Below are positions 8,327-17,700 of a stretch of DNA of 64,000 nucleotides, in pieces. The notes under the pieces were generated by a model, which made no database searches, was not told where the DNA came from, and saw nothing but the letters and a program-made list of their open reading frames with translations. Within the stretch, counting starts at the first letter, position 1. The number at the start of each line of letters is the position of its first letter. Position numbers and translations under genes: made by a program. Source of the DNA: Archangium violaceum (GTDB lineage: Bacteria > Myxococcota > Myxococcia > Myxococcales > Myxococcaceae). Where the stretch lies: positions 4,651,501 through 4,715,500 of the forward strand of contig NZ_CP069338.1 in NCBI RefSeq assembly GCF_016859125.1, read 5' to 3'.

Positions 8327-9694
8327 ATGCCGTCACGTAAAGCCTGGCTGCTTTTGAATCTGACCCTGACATGCTTGATGTGTCTTCAAGCGGGTTGTGA
8401 CCCTATAACGGGCTGTGACACTGACTCCGATTGCAAGGGAGATCGCGTCTGTAACTTCGGCTATTGTGAAGATCCCTCCGAAGACGGCCAGAAGACGTGC
8501 GGTGATGTTGCGCGTCAGTGCTCCTGCGTGGATGGCCTGACCAGTGGAATGACGGTCACGGCGACCAGCTGCGAAACCGGTAAGGCAAAGGTGGAGGGTT
8601 GCAGCGCTTCCTGTGGCGCGGGGGCAACCCAGAGTGTATGTACATGTGGTGGCGATACCGATGAGCCCTCCGAGTATATTACCGGTGGTCAACTCACTCG
8701 TTCCTTCGCGGCGACTGGCGCGTTGGTGCATTACAACCAGAACGCCATATGCACAGGCACCCTTGTGGCTCAAAACAAGGTGCTCACTGCCGCGCACTGC
8801 GTGGATACAGCCTCCCCAGGAAGCCTCAGCTTCGTTCTCGGAGTAGACCTCTCGCAGTCACAACTGCGGTCGAATGTTCTGAGCATAGATATCCACCCCA
8901 ATTGGGTGCACAACCAATTCGAGAACGGAAACGATTTGGCTGTGTTGACGCTGGCATCACCCATCACCGGGGTCCAACCCGCTGTATTGCTGGTGAGTAG
9001 CTCTCCCACGATTGGCCAGCAGATGACCCTGGTTGGCTACGGTCGTACGAGCGGCGATTTCGTTACCGGCATCCGCCGGCTGGCGCGTGTCTCCATTGGT
9101 AGACTGACCCAGCAGTCCATCGGTTACCAGTTCAAGGGAGAGGGGGCGTGCCAGGGCGATTCGGGAGGGCCGGCTTTTGTCGAAGCAGGTGGAAGGTGGT
9201 GGCAGATTGGCGTCACATCATATGGCGACCAGAACTGCACTCAGTACGGCTTCTATCAACGAGTTGATCTCCACAAGGCCTGGCTCTCCGGACGTGGCGT
9301 CCCAGTACAGGAAACACAGAGAGCATGCGAGCAGGACAGCTCCTGCAATGGCGCATGTGAAGAGGACGCGGATTGCTGGTCGTCGATGTGTCCGGACGGC
9401 TCATGCACCGCGCCAAATAACCGATGCCTTGCGGATGGGAGCTGTGATCCGGACTGCGGGAGCTCGGATGCCGATTGCGGCGGCGCTCTGGATTACTGCC
9501 AGCGCTACAATCTCTATGGCAATGGATACTGTGACCAGGGATGCAGCAATCCAGATCCTGATTGCCAGGCGATCAGTTGCACCCCCTCGTACTATATGTA
9601 TGATAATGCTTTCTGTTATTGGTATGACTACTCGGGGCGCATGTGCGGGCAGACGGCTATCTATTGCCACCCGTATTACGGTTGCCGGTGCTGA
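8327..9694 (+). CDS. Secreted trypsin-like (S1) serine protease lipoprotein
   Basis: 455 aa from ATG 8327 with GGAGGAG upstream. A lipoprotein signal (lipobox LQAGC, Cys24) is followed by a Cys-rich segment (24-110). An S1 chymotrypsin-fold domain spans about 118-320, with the catalytic triad H157 (TAAHC), D203 (NDLAV) and S279 (CQGDSGGP). Residues 330-455 hold a second Cys/Asp-rich tail with repeated DxDC and CDPDC-type units, likely disulfide or calcium binding. It is probably a surface or secreted hydrolase used in predation. GC content is visibly lower than in neighbours, and it sits between two direct repeats, suggesting acquisition or rearrangement. Confidence 0.9.
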   Translation: MPSRKAWLLLNLTLTCLMCLQAGCDPITGCDTDSDCKGDRVCNFGYCEDPSEDGQKTCGDVARQCSCVDGLTSGMTVTATSCETGKAKVEGCSASCGAGATQSVCTCGGDTDEPSEYITGGQLTRSFAATGALVHYNQNAICTGTLVAQNKVLTAAHCVDTASPGSLSFVLGVDLSQSQLRSNVLSIDIHPNWVHNQFENGNDLAVLTLASPITGVQPAVLLVSSSPTIGQQMTLVGYGRTSGDFVTGIRRLARVSIGRLTQQSIGYQFKGEGACQGDSGGPAFVEAGGRWWQIGVTSYGDQNCTQYGFYQRVDLHKAWLSGRGVPVQETQRACEQDSSCNGACEEDADCWSSMCPDGSCTAPNNRCLADGSCDPDCGSSDADCGGALDYCQRYNLYGNGYCDQGCSNPDPDCQAISCTPSYYMYDNAFCYWYDYSGRMCGQTAIYCHPYYGCRC

Positions 9695-12076: not shown

Positions 12077-13420
12077 ATGAGTACCCACTCCGCGCATCCC
12101 CTGTCCCAGCGTTCGCCAGACTCACTGGAGCACGAGCTCCGTGTCCAGCTCGAGGGCGCGTGGGAGGTGCTCGAGGAGGCCCGGGTCCGCCAGAGCGCTC
12201 TATTGGAGCCGCTCGCCTCCCGGCGCTGGATGCGCCACCTTCGGCGGCAGCCTGCGCTGTTGCGACAGGTTCGCGAGCTGGAGGCCCCTCTTGGCGAGGC
12301 ACTCGCTCGTGCGGAGCGCCGGCTTGAGCAAGGCTCCCGGTCTGAGCAGCAGCCGTTGGCCCTCCTCGCCCACGAGCTTCGTACCCAGCGCACCAGGCTG
12401 GAGACACTGGTGCGCGACCGGCTCGCTCGGCTCGGCGAACAGGGAAGCCTGTCCTTCGTGGAGGGTCTCGAACGGCTGGAGACGAAGCTGCGCGAGCCGC
12501 CCGCCCCGCCTCTCTTCGAGGGTGAGCTCGTGCTCCTCTCCATCAGCGACGGACGGTGGGTCCCCGTCCTGTATGTCGTCTCCCTCATCGCCCTTCTGTA
12601 CTGGAAGGCAGACAACGTACTCGGGTTCATCCGCAGCATCCCCTCGGGGGGCGTCTTGCGGCTCGTCCTCGCCGGTATGCAATTCCTCATGCTCACGGTA
12701 CCCGTGGTTCGCACACTGTGGGGCGTGGGTCGGTTCTTGCTCACGCCCCGGCGGCTGGTGTGGAAACCGCTCCTGGGCAAGACGAAGCAGCTCTCGTTGG
12801 ACTCGATCCCTCACGATGGCATCACCACCGAGCCTCATGCCTTCACGAAGAAGACCGGTGTCCTGCGTGTGAAAGGGGGAACGGAGACGCTGACCCTCAG
12901 TGATGTCCGGCTCCTCGAGCGCATGAAGGCGTTGCTCGAGCTGCACCGCAGGCCGCTCTTGTTCGGACGCGTCCTGGGCCCGCCCACGTACCCGCTGGCC
13001 CTGTTCCAGGCGACCCGCCGCCCAGCGTCCTCGGGCCCCGAGCACGCGGGAGAGCCGGGAATGCTGGTGCTGCGCTCCGGCTACGTGGCCTTCCTCCCAG
13101 AGGAGGGCTTTGACTTCATGCTGCGCGCTCTCTTCGGCGAGTGGCCCAGGGGCTGCCCGAAAAAGCTGACCCTGCCGCTGATGATGCAGCAGCTTTCCCT
13201 TCTTCCTGAGGCGGATTTCGACCGGTGCGTGGAGGACGCTGTCCGCGCCGGTGGCGGAGCGCTCTGGCCCGCGGCCACCGTCACCCACGGCTCCGCGCCC
13301 TCTGGCCAGGGATACCAGTTCACCCCCCGGCATGGCCCGGTGCTCACCGGAGTTCCAGACGACTCACTGCGCGATGCCTTTGACTGCGTCATGCGCCACT
13401 GGCCTCCTCAGGAGGGTTGA
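12077..13420 (+). CDS. Two-TM membrane protein with PH-like domain
   Basis: 447 aa from ATG 12077 (MSTHSAHP...). Residues 15-150 are helical and charged (coiled-coil-like). Two transmembrane helices follow at about 165-215 (VLYVVSLIALLYW and LVLAGMQFLMLTVPVV). A region resembling a bacterial PH domain comes next (LLTPRRLVWKPLLGKTKQLSLDSI...GVLRVKGGTETLTL). The last 150 residues are unassigned. Function unknown; likely inner-membrane. It converges with the lanthipeptide precursor, with 14 bp between the stops. Confidence 0.6.
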   Translation: MSTHSAHPLSQRSPDSLEHELRVQLEGAWEVLEEARVRQSALLEPLASRRWMRHLRRQPALLRQVRELEAPLGEALARAERRLEQGSRSEQQPLALLAHELRTQRTRLETLVRDRLARLGEQGSLSFVEGLERLETKLREPPAPPLFEGELVLLSISDGRWVPVLYVVSLIALLYWKADNVLGFIRSIPSGGVLRLVLAGMQFLMLTVPVVRTLWGVGRFLLTPRRLVWKPLLGKTKQLSLDSIPHDGITTEPHAFTKKTGVLRVKGGTETLTLSDVRLLERMKALLELHRRPLLFGRVLGPPTYPLALFQATRRPASSGPEHAGEPGMLVLRSGYVAFLPEEGFDFMLRALFGEWPRGCPKKLTLPLMMQQLSLLPEADFDRCVEDAVRAGGGALWPAATVTHGSAPSGQGYQFTPRHGPVLTGVPDDSLRDAFDCVMRHWPPQEG

Positions 13421-13434
13421 GGCGGTGACCGTCG

Positions 13435-13692
13435 TCAGCAGGCGACGAACGTGCAGCCCAGGGCGCTGGGGCAGGCGTCGATCGCACTGCACGGGATGTC
13501 GGTGAACTCAGGCGGGTTACAGCCCCCACGGGGACGGCTCACGCCCCCCACCGCGTCCGACAGCTCGCCTTCGTCGAGTTCGGTCACCGGCCTGCCGGAG
13601 GGGAGCTCGGGAAGTGCCGCCCGCTCCTCCGAGGTGAGGCTCGCGCGGAACGCCGGATCCTTCCACGCACGGATGATGGTCTCTACTCGCAT
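13435..13692 (-). CDS. Mersacidin/lichenicidin-type class II lanthipeptide precursor
   Basis: 85 aa from ATG 13692 with AGGAGG upstream. The leader shows the family pattern: IIRAWKDPAFRASLTSEERAALP, then ELDEGELSDAVGG with the double-glycine cleavage motif at 49-50. The predicted 35-residue core has five Cys (58, 68, 74, 80, 85) and five Ser/Thr (52, 64, 69, 76, 81), enough for up to five (methyl)lanthionine rings. No LanM synthetase or LanT peptidase-transporter is visible in the window, so the precursor is orphan and modified in trans, if at all. The neighbouring ABC genes face away and are of a different family. Confidence 0.85.
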   Translation of the reverse strand: MRVETIIRAWKDPAFRASLTSEERAALPELPSGRPVTELDEGELSDAVGGVSRPRGGCNPPEFTDIPCSAIDACPSALGCTFVAC

Positions 13693-13852
13693 GCTGTTCC
13701 TCCTGGCTGGCGCTCTCCGAAATGAGAGGACACGTTCAGGAGGATGGAGTTGCCTCATTTTGCTTGTGACGGGTTCGCGAGCTGGCGTCCCACGCTTGAG
13801 GTGACGTTCGAGTAGGTTCGCGTCATGATGCCCACCCTACTCGGGAGGGCTC

Positions 13853-14764
13853 ATGGAGCTCCGCATCCAGAACCTGTCCAAGCGCTACCCCAACGGGACC
13901 CAGGCGCTCCAGGACGTCACGCTCACCATTCCGCCTGGCATGTTCGGGCTGCTCGGGCCCAATGGCGCGGGCAAGTCCACGCTGATGCGGACGCTGGCCA
14001 CCCTGCAGGAGGCCGACAGCGGCAGCGCCTTCCTGGGTGACGTCGACATGCTGAAGGACAAGGACGCCGTGCGCCGCGTGCTCGGCTATCTGCCCCAGGA
14101 CTTCGGCCTCTACCCGAAGGTGACCGCCGAGGACCTCCTCACCCACCTGGCCACCCTCAAGGGCATCTCCAGCGCGCGCGAGCGCAAGCAGGTGGTGGAC
14201 GCACTGCTGCACCAGACCAACCTCCACCACGCACGCCGCAAGCAGCTCGGCGGCTTCTCCGGAGGCATGCGCCAGCGCTTCGGTATTGCCCAGGCGCTGC
14301 TCGGCAATCCCAAGCTGCTCATCGTGGACGAGCCCACCGCCGGCCTCGACCCCGAGGAGCGCGTGCGCTTCCACAACCTGCTGAGTGAAATCGGCCAGGA
14401 CGTCATCGTCATCCTCTCCACGCACATCGTCTCGGACGTGCGCGACCTGTGCCCGCAGATGGCCGTGCTCAACGGGGGCAGGGTGCTGCTCACCGGCGCG
14501 CCCGAGGACATCATCGCCCGCCTGGCGGGCCGCATCTGGAAGAAGTTCGTGGACAAGGCTGAACTTCCCAGATTGCAGGCCGAGCTGCCCGTCATCTCCC
14601 ACCGGCTGCTGATGGGCCGCACGCTCGTGCACGTCTACAGCCCGGGTGCTCCGGACGCTTCCTTCACTCCGGCTGTCCCGGACCTCGAGGACGCCTACTT
14701 CGCCGCCATCAAGGGGCACCTCGCGGGGGATGCCGCGCCCACCCTCCAGGCCACCGCGGGCTGA
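13853..14764 (+). CDS. ABC transporter ATP-binding protein
   Basis: 303 aa with Walker A GPNGAGKST (about 39-47), Q-loop LPQDFG, signature FSGGMRQR, Walker B LLIVDEPTAGLD and H-loop STHIV. This is the ABC-2 exporter subtype. The next gene starts 13 nt downstream and encodes the matching permease fused to an M1 peptidase, so the two form one transport complex. Substrate unknown. The gene is divergent from the lanthipeptide precursor (about 160 bp between starts). Confidence 0.93.
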   Translation: MELRIQNLSKRYPNGTQALQDVTLTIPPGMFGLLGPNGAGKSTLMRTLATLQEADSGSAFLGDVDMLKDKDAVRRVLGYLPQDFGLYPKVTAEDLLTHLATLKGISSARERKQVVDALLHQTNLHHARRKQLGGFSGGMRQRFGIAQALLGNPKLLIVDEPTAGLDPEERVRFHNLLSEIGQDVIVILSTHIVSDVRDLCPQMAVLNGGRVLLTGAPEDIIARLAGRIWKKFVDKAELPRLQAELPVISHRLLMGRTLVHVYSPGAPDASFTPAVPDLEDAYFAAIKGHLAGDAAPTLQATAG

Positions 14765-14777
14765 GGAGCCATCCCCC

Positions 14778-17700
14778 ATGCTCTCCATTGCCCTCTTCGA
14801 GCTGCGTCAGCGGCTCAAGATGCTGTCCACCTGGGTGTACTTCGGCGTCTTCTTCTCGCTCGCCTGCCTGGCGATGTGTGTGGCGGGAGGCGCCTTCGAG
14901 TCCGTCAATTTCAGCGCGGGGGGCGGCGGCAAGGTGCTCGCCAACTCGCCTTTCGCGCTAGCCTCGCTTCTCTCCCTGCTCGGTTTCGCCGGGGTCGTCA
15001 TCACTGGCGGAGTGATGGGCCAGTCGGTCTACCAGGACTTCGCCCACGGCACGCACGCGCTCTTCTTCACGGCGCCCATCTCGCGCACCCGGTTCCTGCT
15101 CGGCCGCTTCCTCGGGGCCTTCCTCACGCTCGTCGTCATCTTCTCGAGCATCGGCCTGGGGGCCCGCTTCGGCGCCTCGCTGCCCTTCCTGGACCAGACC
15201 CTCTTGGGCCCCACCGTGTCCGGTTCGTACCTGCGGCCCTACCTGGTCAGCATCCTGCCCAACCTCTTCTTCACCGGCGCGCTCTTCTTCGGGATGGCCG
15301 CGCTCTCCCGCCGCATGCTCCCCGTCTACGTCACCAGCGTGGTGCTGCTCGTGGGCTACCTCGCGGCGGGCCGCCTGCTGCGGGAGCTCGACACGAAGTG
15401 GATCGCCGCGCTGGCGGACCCGTTCGGCATGAACGCGCTACGCATGGTGATGGAGTACTGGACGGTGGCGGAGAAGAACTCCCGCCTGGTGCCGCTCGAG
15501 GGCTGGTTCCTCGTCAACCGTCTCCTCTGGGTGGGGCTGGGTGCCGCCATGCTTGGCTATACCCTCGTCCGCTTCCAACGCTCCCACGCCTTGACGGGAG
15601 GCCGCGCGGAGGCCGTCACCGAGTCCGTGTCCGCCCAGGCGCCGCTCGCGCCTCCCTCCGTCACGCGCGACTTCCGGGACGCCACCTTCCTGCGGCTGCT
15701 CCCGCGGCTGGCGTGGCTGGACCTCCAGGAGACGGTGAAGAACGTCTACTTCCTGGTCATGGTGCTGGCCGGCGTCCTCATGGTCTTCGCGGCCTCGAGC
15801 ACCCTGGGCACCATGTTCGGCACTCCCATCCACCCGGTGACGTACCTGGTGGTGGAGATGGTGGGCGGCGGCTTCAGCCTCTTCCACGTCATCATCATCA
15901 CCTTCTATTCGGGCGAGCTCATCTGGCGCGAGCGCGACGCTCGCATGCACCAGCTCTACGACGCGCTCCCCGTGCCCGGGTGGCTGCCCTTCCTCTCCAA
16001 GCTGCTGGCGCTGATGGGCGTGCAGGTCCTGCTCAGCGCGATGCTGCTCGTCTGCGGCGTGCTGGTGCAGCTCTTCCGCGGCTTCACGGATATCGAGCTC
16101 GGCCTCTACCTCACGGACCTCTTCGGCTACCGGCTGGTGGATATGTGGCAGTTGTGTGTGCTCGCGGTGCTCGTCCACGTGCTGGTGAATCACAAGTACG
16201 TGGGCCACTTCGTGATGGTGCTCTACCTGCTGGCCGCCACGTTCGCCGCGCAGTTGGGCTTCGAGCACAACCTCTACAACTACGCGGGCGCGCCCGTGCA
16301 CATGTACTCGGACATGAATGGCTATGGGCCGTTCGTCGCGCAGATGGTGTGGTTCCGCGTGTACTGGGCGCTCGTGGCGGTGGTGCTCGCCCTCGTCATC
16401 CACCTGTTCTGGGTGCGCGGCACGGAGAGCGATTTCCACTGGCGGCTGAAGCTTGCCGGCGCGCGGGCCTCGCGCCCGGTGCGGAGGGGGCTGGTCCGGT
16501 CCGTGGTGGGGGCCGTGGTCGTGGGCGCCTTCATCTTCTTCAACACCAACGAGCTCAACCCCTTCAAGACGGAGCACGAGGAGCAGACGGAGTCCGCCGA
16601 CTACGAGAAGAAGTACAAGCCGCTCGCGAAGGTGGCGCAGCCGCGCATCGTCTCGGCGAACGTGCAGGTGGACCTCTTCCCCGAGGAGCCGCGCATGCGG
16701 GCCCGGGGCACCTTCGGGCTCGTCAACAAGACGGCCGAGCCGGTGAAGACGGTGTACGTCAACCTGCCGGACGACGTGAAGGTGTACCGGTTGGTGGTGG
16801 CGGGCGCCGAGGCTCCGTCCGAGCAGGACTCGCGGCTGGGCTTCTTCACGTACACGCTGCCCGCGCCGCTCGCGCCTGGGGCCTCCGCCGAGCTCCAGTT
16901 CGAGCTGGGCCTGGAGCCACACGGCTTCCGCAACAAGGGCGCGGAGACGCGGATCGTGGAGAACGGCACCTTCATCCACCACGACGTGCTGCCGAGGCTG
17001 GGCTACCTGGAGGAGCTCGAGCTCCAGGAGGACGAGGTGCGTAAGAAGCAGGGGCTCGCGCCCAAGGCGCGCATGGCCGACGTGAACGACCTGGAGGCCC
17101 GGCGCAACACGTACATCGCCTCGGACTCGGATTGGGTCAGCTTCGAGGCCACGGTGAGCACCTCGCCGGAGCAGATCGCCATGGCGCCCGGCTACCTCCT
17201 GCGCGAGTGGACGGAGAACGGCCGTCGCTACTTCCACTACAAGATGGACAGTCCCATCCTGAACTTCTACTCGTTCCTCTCCGCGCGCTACGAGGTGAAG
17301 CGCGACACGTGGAATGACGTGGCCATCGAGGTCCTCTACCACCCGAGCCACGCGTACAACGTCGAGCGGATGATCCAGGCGGTGAAGGACTCGCTCGACT
17401 ACTACACGAAGAACTTCGGGCCCTATCAGCACCGGCAGGTGCGCATCCTCGAGTTCCCCCGCTACCAGACCTTCGCCCAGGCCTTCCCGAACACCATTCC
17501 GTACTCGGAGAGCATCGGCTTCATCGCGAAGGTGGATCCGGACGACCCGGAGGACGTGGACTATCCCTACTACGTGACGGCCCACGAGGTGGCGCACCAG
17601 TGGTGGGCGCACCAGGTCATCGGCGGCAACGTGCAGGGCGCCACGCTCCTGTCCGAGACGCTCTCGCAGTACTCGGCGCTGATGGTGATGAAGAAGAGGT

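Follow-up and report, generated by a model that had tools for sequence, protein, structure and literature searches.

A probably stranded lanthipeptide precursor in Archangium violaceum and the dispersed precursor family to which it belongs

Described systems and how the locus compares

The best-known trans-acting lanthipeptide systems are those of marine picocyanobacteria; the mersacidin and lichenicidin systems follow the logic of a LanM joined to a C39 LanT. In Prochlorococcus and Synechococcus, ProcM and SyncM are each described as one LanM serving many precursors with a common leader, diverse cores and scattered genes (accessible parts of PMC10783134 and PMC7268733), the precursor counts being 29 and 79, respectively (PMC10783134, same parts). 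Among myxobacteria, a compact class II cluster has been reported in Myxococcus xanthus, and LanT homologues with one precursor in Cystobacter fuscus, scattered precursors going unmentioned in the accessible text of that source (PMC3951391). From the genus Archangium, the class II product LanII-2B of A. violaceum has been made in E. coli with two of its four Ser/Thr dehydrated and two of its three Cys cyclised, giving one DL-Lan and one DL-MeLan ring and weak activity at 130 uM (PMC9576775, Nat Commun 2022); it was treated as an ordinary cluster, the available portion of the article making no mention of dispersed precursors. As far as the accessible text of PMC7268733 goes, its genome mining limited the distance to a LanC-domain gene, so that dispersed precursors would be missed. 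Our searches of the open literature, a coverage outside which most subscription papers lie, turned up no description of scattered myxobacterial precursors.

The window analyzed here is a stretch of 64,000 nucleotides of an A. violaceum genome (NZ_CP069338.1, 4651501-4715500) holding a single lanthipeptide precursor gene, the orphan. Its genome is called G000; G001 is A. lansinium, G004 is A. violaceum, and G000 to G005 belong to the same genus. In the Archangium relatives the layout is like that of the prochlorosins and synechococsins, with many dispersed precursors per LanM. However, the precursors of the orphan's kind (D-type) bear mersacidin/lichenicidin-type instead of Nif11-family leaders, their LanMs (clade D) have a CHG zinc motif (16 of the 16 examined) where ProcM-like enzymes have CCG, and they are fewer, from 1 to 12 per genome, with a common promoter pattern (comparison with the accessible parts of PMC10783134). 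The window genome itself is not prochlorosin-like in number, the orphan being the only D-type precursor found there. With mersacidin and lichenicidin the orphan has the leader family and the GG site in common, but its core differs and it does not lie beside a LanM or LanT.

The orphan gene and its orthologues

The initial annotation had taken the gene for a class II lanthipeptide precursor with a mersacidin/lichenicidin leader, and the corresponding family model agrees (TIGR03898, 67.3 bits, E 8e-19, cut-off 23.5), all Pfam matches being sub-threshold. No Nif11 leader model appeared among the NCBIfam and Pfam matches up to E 10, and the related NHLP leader model reached 12.5 bits, below its cut-off of 50.9. 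The leader over the family cut-off is followed by a GG site and a Ser/Thr- and Cys-containing core, as in class II precursors; this core, VSRPRGGCNPPEFTDIPCSAIDACPSALGCTFVAC, has the 35 residues, five Cys and five Ser/Thr originally counted. Spacing suggests the candidate rings T-D-I-P-C, S-A-I-D-A-C and S-A-L-G-C, with the first and the last Cys then unpaired or joined by a disulfide; the second predicted ring is impossible in the G002 copy because the second of those Ser/Thr is Asn there. The ribosome-binding site is intact, as annotated (Table 1). An in-frame ATG at 13758 was rejected as start, since it sits between both promoter boxes and three orthologues start at the equivalent of 13692.

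Table 1. Features of the orphan locus, in window coordinates
Feature	Position	Strand	Remarks
Precursor gene, 85 aa (85 codons)	13435..13692	minus	ATG at 13692, stop codon ends at 13435; leader is residues 1-50, ending GG; core 35 aa; TIGR03898 match
Core coding part and stop codon	13435..13542	minus	5 Cys; contains SAIDACPSALGC
Shine-Dalgarno AGGAGG	13699..13704	minus	6 nt before ATG
5' hairpin GTCCTCTC-ATTTCG-GAGAGCGC	13710..13731	minus	7/9 pairs in G000
Box ACTCC (-10-like)	13746..13750	minus	15 nt after TCAC
Box GTCACA (-35-like)	13765..13770	minus	
Sole stretch found alike with the G001, G002 and G003 orphan loci	13424..13772	minus	blastn

A LanM in the same cluster is usual, not obligatory, for class II; no PF13575 match was found in the 64-kb window. 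The absence of LanM and LanT nearby was thus correctly noted at the outset, all PF13575 and PF03412 matches lying outside 4651501-4715500, and so were the unrelated ABC neighbors: the flanking genes encode an ABC ATPase, an ABC2-permease/M1 protein and one protein without Pfam match. Elsewhere in the window (8327-9694), a frame looks by eye like a trypsin-type protease: it carries a GDSGGP motif and its tail is rich in Cys.

Full-length orthologues of the orphan occur in three of the five other genomes of the genus (G001, G003 and G002, with 86, 87 and 76% identity), and they sit in three different neighborhoods, that of G000, that of G003 and one shared by G001 and G002. A blastn comparison (E up to 1e-5) of window positions 3001-30000 with the 12-kb orphan loci of these three genomes found a single similar stretch, made up of the promoter boxes, the hairpin, the gene and about 10 bp (Table 1). 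The ABC gene (from about 13824 on) has counterparts in each of the five relatives, where no precursor adjoins it among the matches listed. Long open reading frames are plentiful in high-GC DNA, but there is practically no chance that the orphan is one of these or a mis-called gene, a reading ruled out by a family match 44 bits over the cut-off and by full-length orthologues that keep the core and the upstream boxes.

Pairwise dN/dS came to 0.22-0.34 between the G000 orphan and its orthologues and to 0.33-0.36 for pairs of relatives, and changes confined to a single genome (silent/replacing) numbered 6/5 in G000, 6/5 in G001, 4/4 in G003 and 7/11 in G002. No relaxed selection or excess of amino-acid changes is visible, in small numbers: 11 changes on the G000 branch cannot separate a gene still in use from one recently lost. 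No stop, frameshift or loss of Cys was found in the orphan gene.

Dispersed D-type precursors, their synthetases and their upstream regions

The TIGR03898 profile search found 55 precursors in nine genomes, namely three in G000, 13 in G001, five in G002, nine in G003, one in G004 and 14 in G005, with six in G018 and two each in G032 and G027. After addition of genes from the genera g15 and g26, 77 precursors were extracted and sorted into 61 D-type, 11 B-type and five from g26, the types being assigned from LanM linkage, leader and genus with no blind rule. One precursor each from G027, G001 and G084, that of G067, a weak G001 match near 10175725 and the matches below 77 bits in genomes added with the A1 profile search were left out. 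While the B-type precursors lie close to other LanMs, the D-type genes combine one leader type and mostly one promoter pattern with different cores, four of the 61 lacking Cys. In genomes bearing the clade-D enzyme (LanM-D), 23 of 60 D-type genes lie within 20 kb of it and the remaining 37 farther away or on another contig, a count affected by the many contigs of the G004, G005, G018 and G084-G086 assemblies; in G001-G003, assembled in one or two contigs each, 16 of 24 are far from LanM-D. A. lansinium has a single PF13575 LanM and 12 D-type precursors, eight of them more than 20 kb away. One D-type gene of G085 adjoins a second D-like LanM.

The core motif of the orphan, [SN]AxDxCPS followed after 1-3 residues by C, is present in 10 of the 77 precursors, distributed over five genomes of the genus (G000 included) and G086 of a second genus, and an STGC-TCGI core type recurs in three genera, in LanM-linked as well as in dispersed genes; some cores have therefore been conserved for a long time. 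Another type of scattered core, which contains CCF and ends in CRDLE/D, was seen in the g15 genomes G084, G085, G086 and G082, and the core at G003:8952334, which resembles it at CC without the CRDLE/D end, perhaps belongs to it. Three G001 precursors (2259187, 7069732 and 10175385) have degenerate leaders or starts and are possibly decaying copies. Two D-type genes by a LanM cluster, L062:11565-11837 and G085:C279:39696-39854, have similar Cys-free cores (GPDQDL..) and possibly encode partner or immunity peptides.

In a tree of 31 LanMs, 16 formed clade D (support 100/100), one from each of 16 genomes, with the g26 LanMs as a sister branch within it, and all three LanMs of G000 fell outside. 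Profile A1 matched with at least 77 bits in 17 of 96 genomes of the family (six Archangium, G018, five g15 and five g26), the line having been drawn after the scores were seen to drop from 77.8 to 67.2 bits. The LanM search covered 28 of the 96 genomes, and a clade-D LanM was present in 16 of the 17 with such a precursor, G000 being the sole exception. What argues against a strict pairing is that in G066, G068 and G070 of g26, assembled in 530 to 1240 contigs, partial D-like LanM matches occurred but no precursor reached 77 bits. The pattern as a whole suggests that one clade-D LanM modifies many dispersed D-type precursors in trans. In G004 the only TIGR03898 precursor has four Ser/Thr and three Cys, and the only PF13575 LanM belongs to clade D; on matching residue counts, we infer that LanII-2B as described in the accessible text of PMC9576775 is this precursor. 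Just after the LanT of the same genome (L060, about 17070-17134), a leaderless sequence ending in ..INSCGIVACV and a stop was read by eye, an apparent precursor remnant in A. violaceum.

D-type genes are preceded by the pattern TCAC-N15/16-[ACG]CTC[CT]-N7-TG, which, with looser spacing (9-19), was found complete in 45 of 61 D-type upstream regions vs. a shuffle mean of 0.5, and in none of the 11 B-type (other-LanM-linked) or five g26 precursors. It had been recognized by eye in the Archangium and G018 set (30/42); in genus g15, outside this discovery set, it was found in 15 of 19. Box spacing was 14-16 nt in 42 of 52 cases and the distance to the ATG ranged from 37 to 62, and this near-constant spacing with a variable ATG distance leads us to read the boxes as a putative promoter. 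Genome scans returned 7, 8, and 12 sites in G000, G001, and G003, respectively, vs. 0, 4, and 2 for the reversed pattern; seven of the 27 precede extracted precursors and the other 20 have no clear common theme. One pattern in G001 (7033601-7036100, L242) stands 97 nt before a 74-aa frame with the repeats TTKKFPSD/TLKFPSD, which we take to resemble a microviridin-type graspetide precursor.

Between these boxes and the ribosome site, the 9-bp hairpin is fully paired (9/9) in three relatives, two double changes included, and its energy is -13.2 to -17.7 kcal/mol there vs. -6.3 kcal/mol in G000, where the incomplete hairpin hints at decay. In the four aligned sequences 94% of cells pair vs. 47-64% when slid, and 35 of 500 shuffles reach the observed level; this inner hairpin, in a fixed-offset test vs. 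mononucleotide shuffles, gave p < 0.05 in 27 of 59 sequences and p 0.70 for that of the window. For 13300-13950, Rfam gave a single match; it lies outside the 5' region and, at 14.2 bits, falls short of the cut-off of 38. A different structure, in which the ACTCC box would pair with the Shine-Dalgarno sequence and hide the ribosome site, was also considered. Single-sequence folding favors it (mean z -1.97 for the 61 D-type, -0.16 for 11 others and -0.92 for the five from g26), and the ribosome site was paired far upstream in 50 of 61 D-type sequences vs. 1 of 10 others and 0 of 5 from g26; the same far-upstream pairing occurred in 19 of 43 mechanical background starts. In 57 of the 61 D-type sequences (four dropped) 60% of cells pair vs. 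34-50% when slid, the covariation score was 0.093 vs. up to 0.111 when slid, and RNAalifold gave no consensus structure for the pairing. It was not adopted, because the 15-16 nt box spacing and the variable ATG distance fit a promoter better.

Deletion of LanM-D and readings of the orphan

A genome-wide search, as proposed by the initial annotation, found in the 12.68-Mb single contig of G000 three PF13575 LanMs, three TIGR03898 precursors (the orphan included) and four PF03412 (C39) proteins. For two of the LanMs, a TIGR03898 precursor lies no more than about 6 kb away. Near the third (G000:C1:1707723-1708850, a 958-aa frame with relatives of 74-76% identity in G003 and G005) there was no TIGR03898 match. 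Relocation of LanM-D within G000 was discarded, a full-length LanM-D query returning only the three LanMs at 35-44% identity. When the G002 LanM-D locus was compared with G000, both flanks matched at 84-86% identity (11183658-11187797 and 11187819-11192411), with about 21 bp between them in G000; the LanM-precursor segment missing there is 4.0 to 12.4 kb long in the five relatives. At the join, the LanT stop is followed by sequence that aligns with the last ~20 bases of the LanM 3' end, which points to a deletion in G000 and not to an insertion in the relatives. This loss is most likely recent on the scale of the lineage. The adjoining LanT-D of G000 is intact (742 aa, with C39, membrane and ATPase domains), is preceded by two intact HlyD proteins, and has a dN/dS of 0.14-0.17 vs. 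relatives; it may export peptides of the orphan type.

From what can be read directly in the sequence, i.e., the gene, its family and its dispersal, the pairing with clade D, the deletion, the intact LanT gene and the upstream pattern, we consider it probable that the orphan was a substrate of a trans system resembling that of the prochlorosins and was stranded recently, when its matching LanM was deleted and the exporter gene kept. In Archangium and neighboring genera many small, separate D-type genes would feed one clade-D LanM in trans, with chemistry such as that of the E. coli product of the A. violaceum cluster, taken to be clade D, and a C39 LanT would then cut after the GG and export the product. 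Deletion of the segment holding LanM-D in the window genome would have stranded its sole D-type precursor, which is presumably still transcribed from the intact promoter into a peptide now made without the proper synthetase. Against the trans reading stand the five g26 precursors, which lack the promoter pattern despite clade-D LanMs, and the four Cys-free D-type cores. The two options originally offered for the orphan each hold in part: an enzyme elsewhere fits the relatives, such as A. lansinium, but G000 has lost the matching LanM and keeps three LanMs that are not its orthologues; a relic fits the loss of the enzyme, but not a precursor free of inactivating changes, of Cys loss and of any excess of amino-acid changes.

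One of the two mersacidin-type LanMs near 7.26 and 9.12 Mb may instead have taken over the orphan in trans, its product still being a lanthipeptide, and this we regard as a real possibility, if an unlikely one. The precursors of both LanMs have leaders of the same pattern as the orphan (51 and 46% identical to it over about 50 residues), and the intact frame, promoter boxes and Cys of the orphan, with no visible relaxation of selection, would suit such a takeover. However, the two LanMs are 38-46% identical to clade-D LanMs and outside that clade, their local leaders score 51-53 bits with A1 vs. 134 for the orphan, itself in A1, and at least 77 for the other D-like leaders, and the D promoter pattern is missing from both local precursors, which belong to the 11 B-type genes without it. 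It is quite improbable that the peptide now functions in a lanthionine-free form, for instance as a Cys-rich, disulfide-bonded product that is cleaved and exported by LanT-D. The integrity of LanT-D and its HlyD proteins and the low dN/dS of LanT-D agree with this, as does the fact that the two other mersacidin-type clusters own their C39 proteins and that TIGR03898 finds no further G000 precursor for LanT-D; yet too little time may have passed since the loss for selection to leave a signal, and LanT-D could have a GG peptide from a different family as its substrate.

A bolder version of the preferred reading, that of a recently stranded trans substrate, would see, in Archangium and its sister genera, a trans regulon of mobile single-gene cassettes of ~350 bp, each consisting of promoter, 5' hairpin, leader and core and all served by one LanM; in the window genome the LanM would have been lost, with the exporter and one cassette maintained by selection and the exported peptide produced by a novel route. 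We hold this version as unlikely and put it forward tentatively. Should the preferred reading hold, myxobacteria would provide a second leader/enzyme pairing with the same layout, and one could ask what favors one enzyme with many scattered substrates. The common leader and promoter pattern would offer a route to substrates missed by cluster-based mining, and the window genome, with five enzyme-bearing relatives in its genus, would represent a natural enzyme-loss experiment.
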